Positions 39,350 through 64,000 of a DNA stretch of 64,000 nucleotides are shown piece by piece. Location of the stretch: the NCBI RefSeq assembly GCF_900119165.1, contig NZ_FPJG01000006.1:248001-312000 (forward strand), written 5' to 3'. Position numbers and translations under genes: made by a program. Every line of letters starts with the position of its first letter. Positions within the stretch are counted from its first letter, which is position 1. The notes beneath the pieces are model-generated. The model was given only the letters and a program-made list of their open reading frames with translations. It searched no databases and was not told the DNA's origin. This DNA is from Amycolatopsis australiensis. GTDB lineage: Bacteria > Actinomycetota > Actinomycetes > Mycobacteriales > Pseudonocardiaceae.

Positions 39350-41227
39350 ATGCCCATGTCCTCCCATCCCCTCCACAGAACGGCGTTCCTGGCGGCCGCC
39401 ATCGCCCTGACGGCCGGGCTGGCCGCCGCACCGGCCCAATCGGCAACCCAGGACCAACGGCAACACGACTTCGCCGCCGCGGCGAAGGAGTTCGGCGTCC
39501 CGGAGAACGTCCTCCTCGGCGTCTCGTACCTGGAGTCCCGCTGGGACGTCCACGGCGGCACGCCGAGCACGTCGGCAGGCTACGGCCCGATGCACCTGAC
39601 GGACGTCCGCGAAGCCGGCGCGGCGACGAGCCACCACGACGAAGGCACCGAAGACCCACGCGGCGACGACGCCCGTCCGGCACTGCACCCCCAGGCGGGC
39701 CCCGCCGCCCCGCCCGAGGGACTGCAGACCGTCGACGAAGCGGCGAAGCTCATCGGCACCGACGCCGCGACCCTCCGCACCAACCCCGCCGAGAACATCC
39801 GAGGCGGCGCAGCCCTGCTGGCGAAGTACCACGCCGGAACGACGGACTGGTACGACGCCGTCGCCCGCTACAGCGGCTCCACGGACCAGACCGCCGCCAA
39901 CGCCTTCGCCGACGAGGTCTTCGAGACCATCAAGAGCGGCGTGAGCCGGACCACCGACGACGGCCAGCAGATCACCCTCGCCGCGACCCCGGACATCCCG
40001 CTGCCGCGGCGCGCCGCGAACCCCGCGGACGTCGAGTGCCCGCGAACCGTGGCCTGCGAGTCGGTCCCGGCGCCGTACCAGCAGCTGCCGGGCGACGACT
40101 ACGGCAACCACGACCTGGCCGACCGGCCGGTGAGCCAGAAGATCGACCACATCGTCATCCACGACACCGAGGGCTACTGGGACAGCGTCCTCAAGCTCGC
40201 GCAGGACCCGACGTACGTGAGCTGGCACTACACCGTCCGCTCGAACGACGGCCTGATCGCGCAGCACGTGCCGACGAAGGACGTCGCCTGGCACGCCGGC
40301 AACTGGTACGTCAACTCGAAGTCCATCGGCATCGAGCACGAGGGCTTCGCCGCGAAGGGCACCTGGTACACCGAAGCGATGTACCGCTCGAGCGCGAAGC
40401 TCGTCGGCTACCTCGCGCGCAAGTACGGCATCCCGCTCGACCGGGCGCACATCATCGGCCACGACAACGTGCCCGGCACTGTCCCGTCGACGATCAAGGG
40501 CATGCACTGGGACCCGGGCCCCTACTGGGACTGGTCGCACTACTTCGACCTGCTGGGCGCGCCGCTGGGCGGGTTCGGCCTGCCGGGCTCGTCGCTGGTC
40601 ACCATCGACCCGGACTTCGCCAGGAACCAGCCCGTGTTCACCGGGTGCGACACCGCGGGCCGGCCGTGCGCGCCACGGGGTTCCGAAGCCGTCGTGCTGC
40701 ACTCCGAGCCGAGTGAAACCGCGCCGCTGCTGAAGGACGCCGGTCTGCATCCCGACGGCTCGGCGTCCACGATGGACGTCGCCGACGTCGGCAGCCGCGT
40801 CGCCACCGGGCAGCAGTACGCCGTCGCCGAAGTCCGGGGCGACTGGACGGCGATCTGGTACCTCGGCCAGAAGGGCTGGTTCCACAACCCGCGCGACGCC
40901 CGCGTCGCCAAGCCCGCGTTCGGGTGGGTCGTGACGCCGAAGCCGGGCCTCGCGACCGTGCCCGTGTACGGCCGCGCCTACCCCGAGCCCGAGGCCTACC
41001 CGGCGAACGTGCCGGTGCAGGCGATCACGCCGCTGCCCTACACGCTGGCCGCCGGCCAGCAGTACTCCTCGGCCGGCACGGTCGGCTCGGAGTACTACTA
41101 CGCGGTGACCTTCGACCCGGCAGGCCACGTCGTGGTCAAGGGCAAGCTCAAGTACGTCCAGATCCAGTTCGGGCACCGGATCGCGTTCGTCAAGGCCGAC
41201 GACGTCCGGATCCTGCCCGCGTTCTAG
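39350..41227 (+). CDS. Secreted lysozyme-like/N-acetylmuramoyl-L-alanine amidase fusion
   Basis: A 625-aa secreted cell-wall enzyme. A signal peptide (HRTAFLAAAIALTAGLAAAPAQSA) precedes a transglycosylase-like region (FAAAAKEFGVPENVLLGVSYLESRWDVHGG). A type-2 amidase domain follows near residues 265-410: zinc-ligand candidates are HIVIHDTEG, HIIGHDNVPG and HWDPGPYWDW. The C-terminal about 200 residues are SH3-like beta repeats. The ATG at 39350 follows CTGGGGGT. It should cleave peptidoglycan; the first domain has the Glu of lysozyme-like folds but its activity is unproven. Confidence 0.9.
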   Translation: MPMSSHPLHRTAFLAAAIALTAGLAAAPAQSATQDQRQHDFAAAAKEFGVPENVLLGVSYLESRWDVHGGTPSTSAGYGPMHLTDVREAGAATSHHDEGTEDPRGDDARPALHPQAGPAAPPEGLQTVDEAAKLIGTDAATLRTNPAENIRGGAALLAKYHAGTTDWYDAVARYSGSTDQTAANAFADEVFETIKSGVSRTTDDGQQITLAATPDIPLPRRAANPADVECPRTVACESVPAPYQQLPGDDYGNHDLADRPVSQKIDHIVIHDTEGYWDSVLKLAQDPTYVSWHYTVRSNDGLIAQHVPTKDVAWHAGNWYVNSKSIGIEHEGFAAKGTWYTEAMYRSSAKLVGYLARKYGIPLDRAHIIGHDNVPGTVPSTIKGMHWDPGPYWDWSHYFDLLGAPLGGFGLPGSSLVTIDPDFARNQPVFTGCDTAGRPCAPRGSEAVVLHSEPSETAPLLKDAGLHPDGSASTMDVADVGSRVATGQQYAVAEVRGDWTAIWYLGQKGWFHNPRDARVAKPAFGWVVTPKPGLATVPVYGRAYPEPEAYPANVPVQAITPLPYTLAAGQQYSSAGTVGSEYYYAVTFDPAGHVVVKGKLKYVQIQFGHRIAFVKADDVRILPAF

Positions 41228-41252: not shown

Positions 41253-42629
41253 TCACGCGTCGAGCGCGACCTTCGCCCCGGCCGCCCGTTCGGTGTTGCG
41301 GCGCGTCTTCGCCCAGCCGTTGCGGCCGCGCACCAGCCGGAACAGCGCACGCCACGACGTCACGTAGAACGTGTAGATGTACGCCGCGTACGCGAAGCCC
41401 ATGCCGAGCCCGCGCAGGACGTTCCTGCTGCGCAGGCACTTCAGCTGGTAGATCGGGCCCCAGACGAGGAACGGCAGCAGCCCGAACGAGCCGTAGATCG
41501 CGAACAGGATCCAGGCGCCGCCGGTGAACCACGTCCACATCTGCCCCGGGTCGCCCGCCGTGCCCACCACCAGCAGCACGAACGGGATCGGGTACAGCAG
41601 CGAGCCGAGCAGCTGCAGCCACGGCTGGGCGAGGTAGTACATCATCTCCGCCGCCCCGAGCGTGCTGACGTGCGGCGAGTCCCAGATCCGGCGCAGGTAC
41701 CGGCCGCACTGCATCGTGCCCTGGCCCCACCGCGTGCGCTGCACCAGGAACCGCCGCAGGCTGTACAGCCCCTCCTGCGCCACATGGGAATCCGGCGTGA
41801 ACCCGGTGCGCCAGCCCGCCGTCAGCAGGTGGACGCCGAGCTCGAAGTCCTCCAGCAGCGAGCCGCGCCACGGCTGCTGGTCGCCGCCCGCGATCGAGTC
41901 GAGCGCGGTGAGCCGGGTGAACTGGCCGTTGCCGCCCATGGAGATCGTGCCGGTGAACCCGCGCGAGGTCTGGATCGCCGCGATCGCCGTGCGGAACTCC
42001 AGGTCCTGCAGCTGCGCGAGCTTGAGCCCGAACCAGCGCCCCACCGCGGTCCGCGACGGCGGCGGCGTCCCGACGTTGCTCATCCGGACGTCCAGCTGCA
42101 CCGCGCCGATCTCCGGGTCGCCGAACAGGTGCGGCGCCGCGCAGACCTCCAGGCAGTTCGGGGCCGGGCGGCCGTCGGCGTCGACGACCACCACGACGAC
42201 GTCGTCGCGGCGCGCGTCCGGGCCCATCCACTCGTTCAGCGCCCGGTAGGCGGCGTTGAGCGCGTCGCCCTTGCCGGTCCGGGCCTCGGGCCGCACGCGC
42301 GGCACGAGGTGCAGGTACGGGTCGTAGCCGCCGTGCCGCCGCCACAGCATCCGGACGACGCGGGCGGTGCGGTCCTCGGAATCGTCGTCGACGACCCAGA
42401 CGTGCGCCTTGCGGAACGTCGTGCGCAGGTAGCGGATCGTCTCGCGGATGACCGCCTGCTCGTCGCGGCAGGGGACGAAGAAGTGCCAGGTGAACTCGGC
42501 CGGATCGCCGACCGGTCCCGGCTTGCGCCGCAGGTACGGCACGACGATCAGGACGACGTACACGAGGAAGGCCACGCTCATCGTGAGCGCGAACGCCTGC
42601 GTGATCGCGAGGAGGACCTTGACGCTCAT
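41253..42629 (-). CDS. Membrane glycosyltransferase family 2, exosortase-linked
   Basis: A 458-aa processive-type GT2. An N-terminal membrane helix precedes the catalytic domain: FVPCRDEQAVIRETIRYL, WVVDDDSEDRTA, the DAD-like VVVDADGRPAPN, the acceptor region LLEDFELGVHLLTAGWRT and the QxxRW motif FLVQRTRWGQG. Three or four C-terminal helices follow. Its start overlaps the exosortase stop codon (ATGA), so the two are translationally coupled. GT2 enzymes next to exosortases are known in several Gram-positive systems. It may build the glycan to which the cargo is attached; the acceptor is unknown. Confidence 0.9.
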   Translation of the reverse strand: MSVKVLLAITQAFALTMSVAFLVYVVLIVVPYLRRKPGPVGDPAEFTWHFFVPCRDEQAVIRETIRYLRTTFRKAHVWVVDDDSEDRTARVVRMLWRRHGGYDPYLHLVPRVRPEARTGKGDALNAAYRALNEWMGPDARRDDVVVVVVDADGRPAPNCLEVCAAPHLFGDPEIGAVQLDVRMSNVGTPPPSRTAVGRWFGLKLAQLQDLEFRTAIAAIQTSRGFTGTISMGGNGQFTRLTALDSIAGGDQQPWRGSLLEDFELGVHLLTAGWRTGFTPDSHVAQEGLYSLRRFLVQRTRWGQGTMQCGRYLRRIWDSPHVSTLGAAEMMYYLAQPWLQLLGSLLYPIPFVLLVVGTAGDPGQMWTWFTGGAWILFAIYGSFGLLPFLVWGPIYQLKCLRSRNVLRGLGMGFAYAAYIYTFYVTSWRALFRLVRGRNGWAKTRRNTERAAGAKVALDA

Positions 42630-43165
42630 GCCGCGCGCTTCCGCGTGGCGAGCCAGACGAACAGGACGAGGGAGACCGCGCCGCCGAGCACGCTGACCAT
42701 CGAGCCGAGCAGCGTGTGCCCCCAGTAGTAGCCGTCGTCGGTGCCGAACCAGTGCACGAGCCCGACGATGGTGAGAATGCGCAACTGGTTCACCAGCACG
42801 ACCACGAGTGTGGAAATGCCGAGCGAAAAGAACACCCGCTTCGCATTCGACGGCCGGAAGTACACCATGAGCATCGTCACAACGAGCAGCGGGAGCAAAA
42901 GGAACGCCGAAGAGCATTCCGGAGTCATTCTCAACCCGAATGGAGTAGCGCTGGATAACCCAAAGTAGACCGTCTCCCGATCAGGGGCGACATAAACACC
43001 CGATGTAGTGATGACGTCGAGGATCGCGCCCGCCAGGCGCACTTCCAGTTCGCGGTAGAGCCGCTCGGCCAGCACCACCACGGCACCCGCGGCCGCGAGC
43101 GCGCTCAGCGCGATGACCAGCGGAAATCTTGCCATGCCTCGATTCGGAGCGCTCGCTACGGCCAC
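42626..43165 (-). CDS. Exosortase/archaeosortase family protein
   Basis: A 179-aa membrane protein with about six helices. The exosortase active-site pattern is present: Cys in MTPECSSAFLLLPLL, Arg in NQLRILTIVGLVHWF and His in GYYWGHTLLGS. Such enzymes cleave C-terminal sorting signals and transfer the protein to a cell-envelope target. The GTG at 43165 has AGAGGA five bases ahead; ATG at 43135 is an alternative. Base composition is visibly less GC-rich than in neighbouring genes. It forms an operon with the GT2 gene. Likely cargo genes lie divergently upstream. Confidence 0.88.
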   Translation of the reverse strand: MAVASAPNRGMARFPLVIALSALAAAGAVVVLAERLYRELEVRLAGAILDVITTSGVYVAPDRETVYFGLSSATPFGLRMTPECSSAFLLLPLLVVTMLMVYFRPSNAKRVFFSLGISTLVVVLVNQLRILTIVGLVHWFGTDDGYYWGHTLLGSMVSVLGGAVSLVLFVWLATRKRAA

Positions 43166-43495
43166 GACGTTCCTCTCGGTGTCGATTCTTCGATCAAGCT
43201 GCGGACCCCCGGGCGAGCGTAAGTCATGGTCACCCGGTCGTTCCACCCGGAGGGGTGGTTTCGGCGGCCCATTCGGCACGATCGAGTGCAAACTTGTTAC
43301 GCCGTTCGAGTGATGTGGTGCGCGACCAGCGTAAACACCCTCGGGTTATACCTGATCAGGTGAAATGAGAATTTTTGTGTGCTATTCGGGCCGCACTTCG
43401 CGATAGTCGATTCGCGTGCCGAGTCGAGGCAAGCCGGTTCGATCCGCGCCGCCGTCACGCGAAACCCCGGAAACTCACTCAATTCGGAGGATCAG
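43166..43495. promoter_or_regulatory. Divergent promoter region of the exosortase island
   Basis: This 330-bp gap lies between the exosortase and cargo genes and is the most AT-rich stretch nearby (for example GAGAATTTTTGTGTGC). It contains a perfect 12-bp palindrome, ACCTGATCAGGT, at 43350-43361, a candidate operator that could coordinate both directions. No gene was recognised in it. Confidence 0.5.
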
Positions 43496-44266
43496 TTGAA
43501 GAAGAGCTCCCTCGTGCGCCGCGGCGGCCTGCTCGCCGCGGTCGTGGCGAGCGTCGTGCTCGCCGGCGCGACCCCGGCTTCGGCCGCGCCCGGCGACGGG
43601 TCCGCCTACGGCGCCAAGGTCGACGTCAAGCTGCTCGGCCAGGACGCGGTGAAGGCGGGCCCGTTCGCGGCCGCCAGCACCGCGGGCCCGACGAGCAACA
43701 GCCTGGCCAAGGTCGACCTGACCGGCATCCTCACCGCCGGCGCGATCAACACCGAGGCCAAGCGCGACGACAACTCCGGCGCGGTGACGGCGAAGGCGAG
43801 CACCGCCGACGTCGGGCTGCCGCTGCTGAAGGCGGCCCTCGGCACCGTCGGCATCAAGCTCGTCGAGGCCGTCTGCACCGCGACGCAGAAGGGCGTCGAG
43901 GGCAGCACGCAGCTGGTGGGCGCGAACCTCGGCAGCGCCGGCGCGGTCGACTCCACCCCGGCGGCGAACACGCAGATCAAGGTGGGTCTCGGCGCGATCA
44001 ACGTCGCGACGATCATCCTCAACGAGCAGATCAAGAACAGCGACGGCAGCCTCACGGTCAACGCCGTCCACGTGAAGCTGCTCGGCGAGGGCCTCAACGC
44101 GCTCGGCTCGGGTGACGTGATCGTGTCGTCGGCCACGTGCGGCCCGGCCGCGCCGCCGATGCCGCTGGCGTCCGGCGCCGGCCTGTGGATCGGGCTCGGC
44201 CTGCTCGGCGCGATCGCGATCCCGGTCGGCACCCGCGTCTACCGCCGCCGCTCCGCCCAGGCCTGA
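43496..44266 (+). CDS. Secreted choice-of-anchor-type protein, likely exosortase cargo
   Basis: A 256-aa secreted protein. A signal peptide (KKSSLVRRGGLLAAVVASVVLAGATPASA) starts at TTG 43496, with GGAGG five bases upstream. The mature domain (SAYGAKVDVKLLGQ to TVNAVHVKLLGEGLNALGSGDVIVSSATCG) resembles actinobacterial choice-of-anchor P proteins. The C-terminus is a sorting-signal-like tripartite end: PPMPLASGAGLW, a hydrophobic helix and YRRRSAQA. Its position beside an exosortase makes it the probable substrate. The exact anchoring chemistry is not known. Confidence 0.82.
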   Translation: MKKSSLVRRGGLLAAVVASVVLAGATPASAAPGDGSAYGAKVDVKLLGQDAVKAGPFAAASTAGPTSNSLAKVDLTGILTAGAINTEAKRDDNSGAVTAKASTADVGLPLLKAALGTVGIKLVEAVCTATQKGVEGSTQLVGANLGSAGAVDSTPAANTQIKVGLGAINVATIILNEQIKNSDGSLTVNAVHVKLLGEGLNALGSGDVIVSSATCGPAAPPMPLASGAGLWIGLGLLGAIAIPVGTRVYRRRSAQA

Positions 44267-44277
44267 GCGAGGCGCGG

Positions 44278-44457
44278 ATGTACAAGATGCCGGGCGCGGG
44301 CGTCGGCGTGGCCGGGGGTGGCGTGGGCACCCTCGCGGCCACCGGCGCCGACATCGGGTGGTGGCTGGCCCTCGGCGTGCTGCTGGTCCTGCTCGGGACC
44401 GTCGCGCTGATCGCCGTCCACCGCCGCAACCGCCGCCTCTCCCAGGCGCGGGAGTGA
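44278..44457 (+). CDS. 59-aa sorting-signal-like membrane microprotein
   Basis: The whole protein consists of a Gly-rich start (MYKMPGAGVGVAGGGVG), a LAATGAD motif, a hydrophobic helix (IGWWLALGVLLVLLGTVALIAV) and a basic tail (HRRNRRLSQARE). It lacks a separate signal peptide. It resembles a free-standing C-terminal sorting signal. The start ATG at 44278 has GAGG about six bases upstream, 11 bp after the cargo gene. It may be a second substrate, a chaperone or a regulatory decoy for the exosortase; these are hypotheses. Confidence 0.75.
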   Translation: MYKMPGAGVGVAGGGVGTLAATGADIGWWLALGVLLVLLGTVALIAVHRRNRRLSQARE

Positions 44458-44572
44458 GGCTCGTGCGGCCTCGTTGAGGTGCGGCCGCCGGCGTGTGCCC
44501 CTCGCACGCCGGCGGCCGCACCGGGGGGAATTTTCCTGGAGACTGGACGATGTGGAGAAGGAGCACCGCGCA

Positions 44573-45724
44573 GTGGACGTGATGTTGCTGGCCGGCACGC
44601 GGCCGGAAGCGCTGAAGCTGGCCCCGCTGGCACTGGCTCTGGACGCGCATCCGGCGCTGCGGCCGGTCCTCGTCCACAGCGGCCAGCACCCGGGCATGGT
44701 CGAGCAGGCGCTGGAGCCGTTCGGCCTGACCGCGGATGCGTGGCTGGACGTGCCCCCGCGCGTCACCGGCAGCCAGGCCGAGCTCGTCGCCGGCCTGCTG
44801 CCCGCCCTCGACGACGTGCTGCGCCGGCACGCCCCGGCCGCGCTGGTCGTCCAGGGCGACACGACGACGACACTCGCCGGCGCGCTCGCCGCGTTCTGGC
44901 TCGGCATCCCGGTGGTGCACCTGGAAGCCGGGCTGCGCACGCACGACCTGGCGGCGCCGTTCCCCGAGGAAGGCGCGCGCCAGATGGTGTCCCGGCTGGC
45001 GGCCCTGCACCTGGCCCCGACCCTCGGGGCGGCCGCCGCGCTGCGTGCGGAAGGCGTTGCGCGGCAACGGATCGCCGTCACGGGCAACACGGTCGTCGAC
45101 GCGGTGCTGGAAATCGCCGCGCGCGACCTCCCGGCGCGGGACACGGCACTGGCATTGCTGGAAATGGAGATCGCGGAGGCGGGCGAACGGCTGGTGCTCG
45201 TGACTTCCCACCGCCGCGAGTCGTGGGGCGAGCCGCTGGAGCGGACCCTCGCGGCGGTGCAGCTGATCGTGGCCGAGCACCCGGACGTGCAGGTGCTGTT
45301 CCCGGCCCACCCGAACCCGCAGGTCCGCACCCAGGTCGAGGCGGCGCTGGGTGGCCTGCCGCGGGTGACGGTCACCGACCCGCTGGAGTACCCGGACCTC
45401 GTCCGGGCGCTGCGGCTGGCGTCCCTGGTGCTGACGGATTCGGGCGGCATCCAGGAGGAGGCGCCGACGTTCGGCACACCGGTGCTGGTGCTGCGGGACG
45501 TCACCGAGCGGATGGAGGTCGTCGAGGCCGGCTGCGCGTGGCTGGTGGGCACGGACACCGAACGCATCGCCGACACCGCGGCGCGGCTGCTGCGCGGCGA
45601 GCTGCGTCCCGCGCAGGTGGGAAACCCTTACGGCGAAGGCAATGCCGCGGTTCTCGCGGTCGCGGCGATCGAGGAACTGCTGGGCGTGGGCAGCCACGCA
45701 CACAAGCACGCGGCGGCTTCGTAG
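44573..45724 (+). CDS. wecB: UDP-N-acetylglucosamine 2-epimerase (non-hydrolysing)
   Basis: A 383-aa enzyme interconverting UDP-GlcNAc and UDP-ManNAc. The motifs MLLAGTRPEALKLAPL, VVQGDTTTTLAGALAAF, VVHLEAGLRTHDL, FPEEGARQMVSRLAALHLAP and LTDSGGIQEEAPTFGTPVLVLRDVTER are all typical. The GTG at 44573 leads directly into the first motif with AAGGAG upstream. It is likely part of the exosortase island: epimerases of this type occur beside several exosortase systems and would supply a sugar nucleotide for the glycan made by the GT2 enzyme. Confidence 0.93.
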   Translation: MDVMLLAGTRPEALKLAPLALALDAHPALRPVLVHSGQHPGMVEQALEPFGLTADAWLDVPPRVTGSQAELVAGLLPALDDVLRRHAPAALVVQGDTTTTLAGALAAFWLGIPVVHLEAGLRTHDLAAPFPEEGARQMVSRLAALHLAPTLGAAAALRAEGVARQRIAVTGNTVVDAVLEIAARDLPARDTALALLEMEIAEAGERLVLVTSHRRESWGEPLERTLAAVQLIVAEHPDVQVLFPAHPNPQVRTQVEAALGGLPRVTVTDPLEYPDLVRALRLASLVLTDSGGIQEEAPTFGTPVLVLRDVTERMEVVEAGCAWLVGTDTERIADTAARLLRGELRPAQVGNPYGEGNAAVLAVAAIEELLGVGSHAHKHAAAS

Positions 45725-61500: not shown

Positions 61501-61504
61501 GCGC

Positions 61505-61960
61505 TCAGACGAGCCAGCTGGTGCTGGAGAAGTCGTCCTCGTCGTCGGGCTGCCGGGCGTGCCTGCCCCGCCGCGGGGGCTCCGGCGCCGGGGGTTCCGG
61601 TGCCGGCTCCGGGCGCGGCGCGGCCGTGACCGGAGTTCCGTAGCTCGGCGTCGGGTAGTTCGGGTACCCGGTGCCGGCTTCCTCGTCCTGGACGCCGAAC
61701 TCCATCAGCGACTCGCGGCTCTTGTCGGCCAGGGTCTTCTCCGTCGCCCAGCCGCCCGCGCTCTGCTTGCGCTTGTTGAGCTCGTCCATGTGCTCGGCGT
61801 ACTTCTGCGCGGCGGCCAGCTCCTGCTTCAGCCCCTCGCGGGCCTGCGCCTCCGCCTCCGCGACCCGGCGCTCCCGCAGGCCCCGCTGCTCGTCCTGCTC
61901 GCGCGCCGCGGCCTCCATCGTCGAGATCGCCGCGCGGTACCGGTCTTCGGCGCTGCTCAT
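61505..61960 (-). CDS. Coiled-coil protein downstream of a WXG-like gene
   Basis: A 151-aa soluble protein. Residues 1-75 form a charged helix (YRAAISTMEAAAREQDEQRGLRERRVAEAEAQAREGLKQELAAAQKYAEHMDELNKRK). The rest is a Pro-rich tail ending in an acidic DDEDDFSSTSWLV. The ATG is preceded by GGAGGG and starts 14 bp after the stop of the large WXG-like gene, so they form an operon. It may be a partner or chaperone of that protein, which is inference. Confidence 0.78.
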   Translation of the reverse strand: MSSAEDRYRAAISTMEAAAREQDEQRGLRERRVAEAEAQAREGLKQELAAAQKYAEHMDELNKRKQSAGGWATEKTLADKSRESLMEFGVQDEEAGTGYPNYPTPSYGTPVTAAPRPEPAPEPPAPEPPRRGRHARQPDDEDDFSSTSWLV

Positions 61961-61974
61961 CGGCCCTCCTCCCG

Positions 61975-64000
61975 TCACCGGTCGTACCGGATCGACCGGT
62001 CGCCCTCGTCGTCCAGCGAGCCGCTGATCCGGCCCTTGGCGCCGCTCGTCTCGAAGACGCCGCCTTCGATGCGGTACTGGCTCGGCCCGCGCTGCTGGTC
62101 ACCGCCGCCACCACCGGGCGCGGCACCCATGCCGCCCATCATGCCGCCCATGCCACCCATGCCGGTCATCCCGCTCATGCCGCCCGGCGCGCTCGCGGTG
62201 GCTTGGTGCATTCCCGGGTCGACCGGGGTGGCGCCGAGCCCGGCACCGCCGTCGGACATCGGGAGCGACGCGTCGCTACCCGTGTGCGCACCCGGGTCGA
62301 GCGAGACGGCGCCCGCGAAGTCGGCCGAACCACCGCCGGTGACGGCGGAGCCGAAGTCGCTCGCCCCGGCCGTCGTGGTCGCGTCGCCTGCCGCGCCGGC
62401 ACCGGCCGCGACGCCGGCGTCGGCCGTCGCCACGGCGGGCTCCGCGGCGACGCCGCCACCGGCACCGCCGCCGAAGTCACCGGAGAAGTCCTGCCCGCCC
62501 GGCGCGGTGAACCCACCGCCACCGGCGGCCGCCGCGCCCTGGGTGAAGCCCGGGTCCGGGTGGGGCGGCGCCGGGTCCTTCGTCAGCGGCGGCTCGGCGC
62601 CCGGGTCGTGGTGGATCGCCGAGCCGGTGACGCCGTCGCCCGTGGTGCGGGCCGGGTCGGTCTTGGCCTCACCCGCCTTGGCCTCGCCCGCCTTGGGGTC
62701 GTCCTTGTCGTCCAGCGTGTACGTGGTCGGCTCGCCCTTGCCGTCGTCGACCGTCACGATCGTGGGCCCGTTCGGGCCCTCCGGCCGCTCGGCGGTGATC
62801 TTCAGGTTGCCGTCCTGGATGTGGATCTTGCCGTCCGGGCCCGGCTTGTAGGTGCCGTCGGCCGACGGCTGCCCCTCCTTGACCGCGCCCTGCGGGCCGA
62901 AGCCGCCGTCGGCGGGCTTGGCGCCGTCCTTGCCCGCCTCGGCCTTGTCGCCGTCACCCCAGTCGAGGTGGTAGTCCTTCTTGTGGCCGTGGCCGTCGTC
63001 CACGGAGATGTCCTGCTTGCCCTCCTTGTCGGGCTCGGACATCTCGATCGTGTTGTCGCCCTTCTTGACCGACACCGTGTCCGTGTCGTCCAGGTCCTTG
63101 ATGGCTTCGCCGGTCGTCGGGTCGATCGGGTACGGCTTCCCGGTGGCCGGGTCGACCTCGAGGGGCTTGCCGGTGATCGGGTTCTTGCCGTCGTCGTGCT
63201 TCGCCGGCTCCTCGGCCTTGGGCGGCTCGGCCGCCGACGGCGTCGTGCTGCCCCCGCCGCCCGTGCTGCCACCAGCGCCCGTGCTGCCACCACCGCCGGT
63301 CGAGCCCCCGCCGCCGGTGGTCCCGCCGCCGCCGGTCGTGCCGCCGCCGTTGCCGTTGTGCGTGTCGCCGCCCTTGTCGCCGCCGGTGTTCTGCGTCTCG
63401 GTGAGCTGGTTGCGGTAGCCGTCCATGAACCGCTCGAGCGCGCCGAACTGCTGGTCGATCGTGTCCTTGGCGGATTTGCAGGAGCCGTTGAACGCGTTGA
63501 TCAGGCCCTGGTACTCCGTGGTGAACGCGCCATCCCGCCAGTACCGGCAGACGTTGCGGCCGTACTCCTTGTTCTCGTCGTTGAAGCCGCAGTCGTCGTT
63601 CTGCAGCCGCTCGGCGAGGTTCGTCTGGTTGCCGTTCTTCGCGTTGACGGCGTCGACCCAGCCGGCGACCTTCATGAAGTCGTCGAACTTGTCGGTCTCG
63701 CCGTTCGCGATCTTGAGGACGTCACGGGCCATGTTGATGTCGGCCTGCGCGATCGTCGTGCGGTGCAGCGCGAGGACCTCGTCGACCTTCTTCTTGACCG
63801 CGTCGTAGACGTGCGTCACGGTCTGCGGGATCAGCTTCGCGGCGCCGTCGATCTGCTGCGAAAGCTCCTTGGCGTGCGGCTTGATGACCTCGTCGTACTT
63901 GATCTCCGCCGCGTTCGCGCCCTTGCCCTTCCACTCCCCGAAGAGGGTCTGGAGCTCGGTGTCGCTCTTGGTGAGCGTGTCTTCGACGACCTTGTGCGCC
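61975..64000 (-). CDS. Large WXG/ESX-like secreted protein, C-terminal part (5' end outside window)
   Basis: The frame is open to the window edge, giving at least 674 aa. The visible N-terminal part is a helical domain with a W-x-G-type turn (FGEWKGKGANAAEIKYDEVIKPHAKEL) and a Cys-containing segment (CGFNDENKEYGRNVCRYWR). A low-complexity linker of GGGST repeats follows. A middle region has Asp/Lys-rich repeats (ITGKPLEVDPATGKPYPIDPTTGEAI, DVDDGHGHKK-like). The last part is Gly/Ala/Met-rich. This suits a type VII secretion substrate with an effector-like tail; the export route is inferred. Confidence 0.8.
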   Translation of the reverse strand, partial: AHKVVEDTLTKSDTELQTLFGEWKGKGANAAEIKYDEVIKPHAKELSQQIDGAAKLIPQTVTHVYDAVKKKVDEVLALHRTTIAQADINMARDVLKIANGETDKFDDFMKVAGWVDAVNAKNGNQTNLAERLQNDDCGFNDENKEYGRNVCRYWRDGAFTTEYQGLINAFNGSCKSAKDTIDQQFGALERFMDGYRNQLTETQNTGGDKGGDTHNGNGGGTTGGGGTTGGGGSTGGGGSTGAGGSTGGGGSTTPSAAEPPKAEEPAKHDDGKNPITGKPLEVDPATGKPYPIDPTTGEAIKDLDDTDTVSVKKGDNTIEMSEPDKEGKQDISVDDGHGHKKDYHLDWGDGDKAEAGKDGAKPADGGFGPQGAVKEGQPSADGTYKPGPDGKIHIQDGNLKITAERPEGPNGPTIVTVDDGKGEPTTYTLDDKDDPKAGEAKAGEAKTDPARTTGDGVTGSAIHHDPGAEPPLTKDPAPPHPDPGFTQGAAAAGGGGFTAPGGQDFSGDFGGGAGGGVAAEPAVATADAGVAAGAGAAGDATTTAGASDFGSAVTGGGSADFAGAVSLDPGAHTGSDASLPMSDGGAGLGATPVDPGMHQATASAPGGMSGMTGMGGMGGMMGGMGAAPGGGGGDQQRGPSQYRIEGGVFETSGAKGRISGSLDDEGDRSIRYDR

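Follow-up and report, generated by a model that had tools for sequence, protein, structure and literature searches.

The stretch of DNA analysed here (64,000 nucleotides, positions 248001-312000 of contig NZ_FPJG01000006.1, hereafter the window) belongs to the 9.3-Mb genome of the soil bacterium Amycolatopsis australiensis and contains an exosortase cassette at window positions 41253-45724. The five genes are located as an earlier note, made from the sequence alone, had placed them. A glycosyltransferase (GT) of the GT2 type and exosortase P (XrtP) are encoded on the minus strand, divergently from the plus-strand genes for the secreted cargo CoaP, a mini-protein of 59 amino acids and the UDP-N-acetylglucosamine (UDP-GlcNAc) 2-epimerase WecB. 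Pfam and NCBIfam are concordant on the identities of all five proteins, each of which passes the cut-off of an NCBIfam model. Judged from model names and scores, the single parts and the relation between XrtP, GT and CoaP are already curated in NCBIfam (NF012139, NF053846, NF053845), and the island passes all three cut-offs, but the names of these models mention neither the epimerase nor the mini-protein. Both appear as fixed, functionally separable members beside the curated exosortase parts.

The conservation of the cassette was investigated in 150 genomes of the same family, where 20-kb stretches were examined around all 26 XrtP loci (L083-L108), and in a scan of named genomes that overlaps with these 26 and comprises 80 loci under 11 genus names, with Amycolatopsis (34) and Lentzea (21) as the largest. 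All five genes are present in one order in each of the 26 genomes with XrtP over the cut-off and in 80 of the 80 named loci, which agrees with the claim of an actinobacterial island kept together across genera; the uniform order in the named loci is indicative of an association beyond chance. Within the 150 genomes the cut-offs are exceeded by XrtP in 26, CoaP_CTERM in 29, the mini-protein in 26 and the GT in 31, and XrtP is accompanied by the GT in 26/26, by CoaP_CTERM in 25/26 and by the mini-protein in 24/26 cases (Fisher p 3e-23 to 2e-24, ignoring phylogeny). The lone CoaP_CTERM miss (G418) has runs of N inside CoaP, and in the two genomes without a mini-protein match (G325, G426) its score is slightly below the cut-off. 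Since the flanking genes sort the 80 loci into six contexts (44, 32, 1, 1, 1 and 1 loci), the number of independent cases is far lower than 80. In a sample of 296 genomes of the class, XrtP exceeds the cut-off only in the genome studied here (1/296) and a TIGR04178 exosortase is found in 11; all eight genomes of this sample with an XrtP/R/S-like exosortase have a mini-protein of the MY plus L[AP]xTG kind.

XrtP (42626-43165, minus strand, 179 amino acids) starts with a GTG codon preceded by GAGAGGA and scores 272.1 bits against NF012139 (cut-off 200). The earlier note had proposed a comparison with the XrtG and XrtP families, and the assignment holds for the latter only, because the XrtG model TIGR03110 yields 24.8 bits at a cut-off of 102.75. 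The motifs PECSS, NQLRI and YWGH are all found, and an alignment with 18 relatives shows no variation at Cys84, Arg129 and His150. The closest named relatives of the exosortase are from Amycolatopsis. The triad is also present in 80/80 named loci, a count that is partly built in, as the scan used active-site patterns. The reported ATGA overlap with the GT gene exists, and a four-base overlap recurs in 63 of the 80 related loci. Low GC content of the exosortase gene had been noted as well (63.3% versus 72.3% for the window), but only 38 of the 80 related loci have an XrtP with lower GC than the GT beside it, and the deviation is thus not a shared foreign signature. The stretch that separates the divergent XrtP and CoaP genes (43166-43495, GC 59.1%) is the presumed site of both promoters. 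One genome (G301) contains two complete diverged cassettes (L077, L082), whose XrtP scores are slightly below the cut-off (191 and 177 bits).

CoaP (43496-44266, plus strand, 256 amino acids), with a TTG start preceded by GGAGGA, is a choice-of-anchor P protein (choice_anch_P, NF040603: 94.5 bits, cut-off 27). It is composed of a signal-peptide-like N-terminus, a beta-rich domain and a C-terminal sorting tail of the form PMPLASGAG, transmembrane (TM) helix and RRR (residues about 220-254); its predicted structure has a predicted local distance difference test score (pLDDT) of 83 and a C-terminal helix at 228-255. The sorting-like C-terminus that had been described for this secreted protein is recognized by CoaP_CTERM (NF053845, 63.6 bits, cut-off 35), and a P.P[LM]ASG.G-type motif occurs in CoaP of 79 of the 80 named loci. 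The suggestion that the same C-terminus might be found on other genes was not borne out, because a scan of the genome detected a single CoaP_CTERM (67.9 bits), adjacent to XrtP, which makes the two a one-enzyme, one-substrate pair. A second, tail-less CoaP-like protein is encoded downstream of WecB in several loci (L067:11688-12344, L074:11636-12295, L075, L076, L081, L125), and at the diverged locus L072 (8578-9429) the place of CoaP is taken by a putative cargo, a DUF11 protein whose hydrophobic tail ends in Arg.

The mini-protein (44278-44457, plus strand) matches LAXTG_small_WW (NF058583, "LAXTG motif-containing small protein") with 94.3 bits at a cut-off of 65. Its layout is MYKMPGAGVGVAGGGVGT-LAATG-TM-basic tail, with a MY[K/R]xP[G/T] tip, a Gly-rich linker and one TM helix. 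The following statistics refer to the 80 named loci with 75 distinct sequences, for which start codons were set by alignment. All mini-proteins start with MY (80/80 loci, 75/75 distinct sequences), while the background frequency of Tyr at position 2 is 1 in 889 other predicted genes; position 3 is K or R and position 5 is P in 74 of 75 sequences each. The linker to the LAxTG motif comprises 13-18 residues, 64% of them Gly, Ala, Ser or Thr, and the motif itself is present in 80/80 mini-proteins (LAATG 43, LAVTG 24, LAMTG 9, LALTG 2, LASTG 1, LAYTG 1). The mean net charge of the last 15 residues is +4.55 compared with +0.99 ahead of LAxTG, and an N-out insertion is therefore predicted. The protein thus has the C-terminus of a sortase substrate, consisting of pentapeptide, TM helix and basic tail. 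The earlier note had correctly recognized a small protein with a sorting-like helix, but the signal is of the sortase type (LAxTG-TM-Arg) and not of the exosortase type. Accordingly, the mini-protein matches sortase-signal models (LAXTG_small_WW, and LPXTG_anchor weakly) and CoaP matches CoaP_CTERM, with no cross-matching between them. It probably works like a sortase substrate, although it is filed only in NF058583. The available text of PMC5148588 describes LAXTG as the motif taken by class E sortases. The genome has ten sortase-domain places, and a sortase domain is also present in 39 of 39 further genomes with such loci.

The GT2 protein (41253-42629, minus strand, 458 amino acids) is a membrane-integrated, synthase-type glycosyltransferase that scores 723 bits against the model for the "XrtP-associated glycosyltransferase" (NF053846, cut-off 520). 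It exhibits a DxD motif and a QxxRW motif (here QRTRW), the latter being conserved in 80/80 related loci. The model fold matches hyaluronan synthase, cellulose synthase and PcManGT over the whole length including the TM helices, at an identity of 13-18%, and a sequence search of the Protein Data Bank gave no match at E 0.01. Motifs and fold fit the processive GT2 synthases; the shared fold is nevertheless no proof of processivity, because PcManGT is listed as a mannosyltransferase. WecB (44573-45724, plus strand, 383 amino acids) is a non-hydrolysing epimerase, as the earlier note had stated (TIGR00236: 366 bits, cut-off 210), with 7vza as its match among solved structures (E 7.4e-84). It is present in 80/80 loci, and the motifs GDT, HLEAG and FPEE (80/80) and HR[RK]E (79/80), which presumably hold the catalytic residues, are conserved. 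The cassette copy is not the sole WecB, as the genome has three wecB-like places, two of them over the cut-off; it has the top score. Pairs of GT and WecB also occur without an exosortase. A set of such loci (L109-L117, L120, L121, L124) comprises WecB and a GT2 relative, with DUF2334 as the one neighbour checked, and possibly represents an undescribed locus for a polymer of N-acetylmannosamine (ManNAc).

Loci that are diverged or decayed allow the contributions of the single genes to be separated. Ten diverged exosortase loci from the own and other families (L070, L072, L078, L079, L127-L132) all encode a mini-protein with MY and LAxTG or LPxTG; a GT is present in 10 and WecB in 8 of them, and the mini-protein gene adjoins the exosortase in most. 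At L132 (6614-7315) both are joined in a single open frame of 233 amino acids (MYKPP...LPYTG-TM-exosortase), one case in a genome that is 68% complete. The decayed locus of genome G352 (L071:7270-9916) has an XrtP homologue that retains the Arg and has lost the Cys and His positions. CoaP is missing, 370 bases separate XrtP from the mini-protein gene, and GT, mini-protein (MY...LAVTG) and WecB are intact. In the genus g133, the Cys of XrtP is lost in three genomes (G351, G420, G436), which together with G403 show a cut or missing GT, no CoaP_CTERM, no mini-protein at the locus and a retained WecB; their congener G314 has the full cassette. CoaP_CTERM is found in none of the four genomes with a broken triad (G352, G351, G420, G436). 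Genome G404 retains a 96-base GT remnant beside a mini-protein with a damaged WW/TM core, which looks like a recent loss, and G317 has a mini-protein without its MY start plus WecB. The decayed loci split the XrtP-CoaP pair from the GT-WecB-mini-protein module, and good support for the pairing of XrtP and CoaP comes from their linkage, the single substrate and their joint loss.

In G352 a class-E-like sortase gene starts at the GT stop, and in G321 and G358 such a gene is located downstream of the GT on the same strand. These three were the only ones found in a scan of loci L067-L215 with three queries that are blind to other sortase classes. A small membrane protein that follows the G352 sortase presumably resembles the one at housekeeping srtE loci; with this neighbour and three such loci, the placement of the G352 sortase may be due to chance.

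We give about even chances to the reading that the cassette serves dedicated protein anchoring by two coupled modules, the product of which would be CoaP-glycan-(peptide)-wall. In the first module, XrtP would cut CoaP near its PxP[LM]ASGxG tail and transfer the new C-terminus to an acceptor. In the second, the membrane GT2 and WecB would build this acceptor, a glycan with ManNAc (or made from UDP-ManNAc/UDP-GlcNAc). The mini-protein would be inserted N-out and cut at LA-x-T|G by a host sortase, and its short, MY-tipped peptide would be joined to the cell wall, thereby tethering the glycan. Gene identities, fixed linkage, catalytic motifs, the sortase-type signal, the conserved MY tip and the fact that decayed loci separate the modules are direct data; what we infer is all of the chemistry, which sugar and which acceptor are involved, and that the mini-protein acts as a tether. 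The role of GT and WecB as acceptor makers is suggested by their fixed linkage and the ATGA coupling. The putative link to a glycan, which the earlier note had already proposed, is strengthened by the fixed presence of WecB in the set and by related GTs that pair with WecB without an exosortase. The boldest step is the use of the mini-protein as a wall handle, which is proposed because conservation in this protein centres on the tip and the sortase signal, as would be expected of such a handle. In its most far-reaching form, the proposal would be that a minimal, cargo-free peptide is fixed to the wall by sortase, that its invariant Met-Tyr tip carries or primes the GT2-WecB glycan and that the exosortase adds one cargo protein at the far end of this glycan. 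XrtP and its XrtR/S-like relatives among the actinobacterial exosortases would then have their long-missing acceptor handle in the mini-protein; in this form we consider the proposal unlikely.

Several observations weigh against the anchoring by two modules. The mini-protein lacks an N-terminal signal peptide, as just 2 plus 13-18 residues precede the motif in the 75 distinct sequences, and it thereby differs from usual sortase substrates; sortase-anchored proteins always carry one according to the accessible part of PMC3237569. Three genomes with exosortases of other types (G011, G033, G040) contain no such mini-protein within 20 kb, and WecB was not found in the fetched stretch of two of the ten diverged loci (L070, L127). 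G403 encodes an N-terminally shortened XrtP that retains Cys, Arg and His, yet it has no CoaP_CTERM. Cargo without exosortase, which the earlier note had named as evidence against its island, exists in 2 of the 29 CoaP_CTERM genomes: G404 and G421 keep CoaP_CTERM, mini-protein and WecB, and TIGR04178 detected no exosortase in either genome. In G321, CoaP is located on a separate contig without mini-protein or WecB (L069), and the exosortase, on another contig, is only a diverged one. Finally, L[AP]xTG is missing from 10 of the 11 small TM proteins encoded next to GT-WecB pairs that lack an exosortase, and wall linkage is thus not needed for the role of the GT in those loci.

These small proteins lead to an alternative that is rather unlikely in our view, namely that the mini-protein serves the GT2 synthase as an accessory subunit, in the way that PgaD serves PgaC, with a sortase signal used only for its positioning or recycling, and that XrtP joins CoaP to an untethered glycan. 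Of the 15 exosortase-less loci that were fetched, 11 encode a single-TM protein of 51-61 amino acids between WecB and GT, in most cases directly adjoining the start of the GT gene or overlapping it, and G352 retains the mini-protein with the GT after the loss of XrtP activity and CoaP. The small proteins are, however, putative homologues of the mini-protein, judged by position and topology. L[AP]xTG is kept in 80/80 XrtP loci and 10/10 diverged loci, and the interchange of LAxTG and LPxTG is what a used sortase signal would show. The retention in G352 of a mini-protein with MY and LAVTG despite a dead XrtP and the absence of CoaP also argues against its role as the direct nucleophile of XrtP. 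In this case XrtP would ligate CoaP to the mini-protein, either at Tyr2 or at the N-terminal amine, and the mini-protein would be placed on the wall by sortase before or after this step, while GT and WecB would serve a separate envelope polymer. The conservation of the extreme N-terminus compared with the background, the position of the mini-protein gene next to the exosortase in most diverged loci and the fusion at L132 are in line with such a ligation, but the fusion is the single case from an incomplete genome mentioned above and the most faithful companion of XrtP is the GT; we regard this alternative as quite unlikely.

It is at least as unlikely that the genes are independent neighbours, with GT, WecB and mini-protein making an exopolysaccharide and XrtP only cleaving CoaP for release or lipid anchoring. 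GT-WecB pairs without exosortase exist and none of the five cassette products has been proven to act as acceptor, but XrtP over the cut-off never occurs without the GT in the 150 genomes and the overlap of both genes is widespread. The view of the earlier note, that the mini-protein is a second XrtP substrate consisting almost only of a sorting helix, finds support in the likeness of the mini-protein and CoaP tails (PMPLASGAGLWIGLG versus GTLAATGADIGWWLALG). It is highly improbable given that neither protein fits the model of the other and that the mini-protein is kept beside the dead XrtP of G352.

The two-module anchoring can be compared with known systems. Streptomyces chaplins, the class E sortase LAXTG substrates of PMC5148588, have the same order of LAxTG, TM helix and basic tail; as far as the available text goes, the mini-protein differs by the absence of signal peptide and cargo domain, with only about 17 residues before the motif. 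A precedent for neighbouring genes that make the acceptor of a sorting enzyme is provided by the archaeosortase ArtA with PssA/PssD in some methanogens (PMC7157517, accessible part), where the acceptor pathway is a lipid one; XrtP instead has genes for a GT2 and a UDP-sugar epimerase in its vicinity. In the type IX secretion system (T9SS; Wbp/Vim pathway), the C-terminus of the cargo is amide-bonded to an amino-sugar derivative, and the linking sugar of Tannerella forsythia is the manno-configured mannuronic acid, with a predicted epimerase (PMC7468200, sections available). That transpeptidase is unrelated and acts at the outer membrane, and the system has no set of GT2, sortase and mini-protein. 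The same sections describe the molecules to which exosortases join their substrates as unidentified. The literature searched, which covers few subscription journals, includes no paper that describes WecB or a sortase-tagged mini-protein at XrtP loci and none combining exosortase and Amycolatopsis, and exosortase goes unmentioned in the accessible part of a 2026 paper on sortase E of Actinoplanes. An anchoring chemistry with the two enzymes sortase and exosortase has no description in this literature.

The cassette combines a single enzyme with a single substrate and has two glycan genes alongside, which makes it a minimal case for the question of the exosortase acceptor, in a genus amenable to genetics. 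Through the mini-protein, the unrelated sorting systems of sortase and exosortase come together in a single conserved gene set, a combination that specialists would not expect, and the wall-attachment tag of this protein may help to reveal the attachment target of exosortases.

The region adjoining the cassette (39350-41227) encodes a secreted protein that matches Amidase_2 (120 bits) and, marginally, SLT; its conservation next to the cassette is limited to the Amycolatopsis context. At window positions 61501-64000 the AT skew drops to about -0.5 and differs from that of the remaining window.

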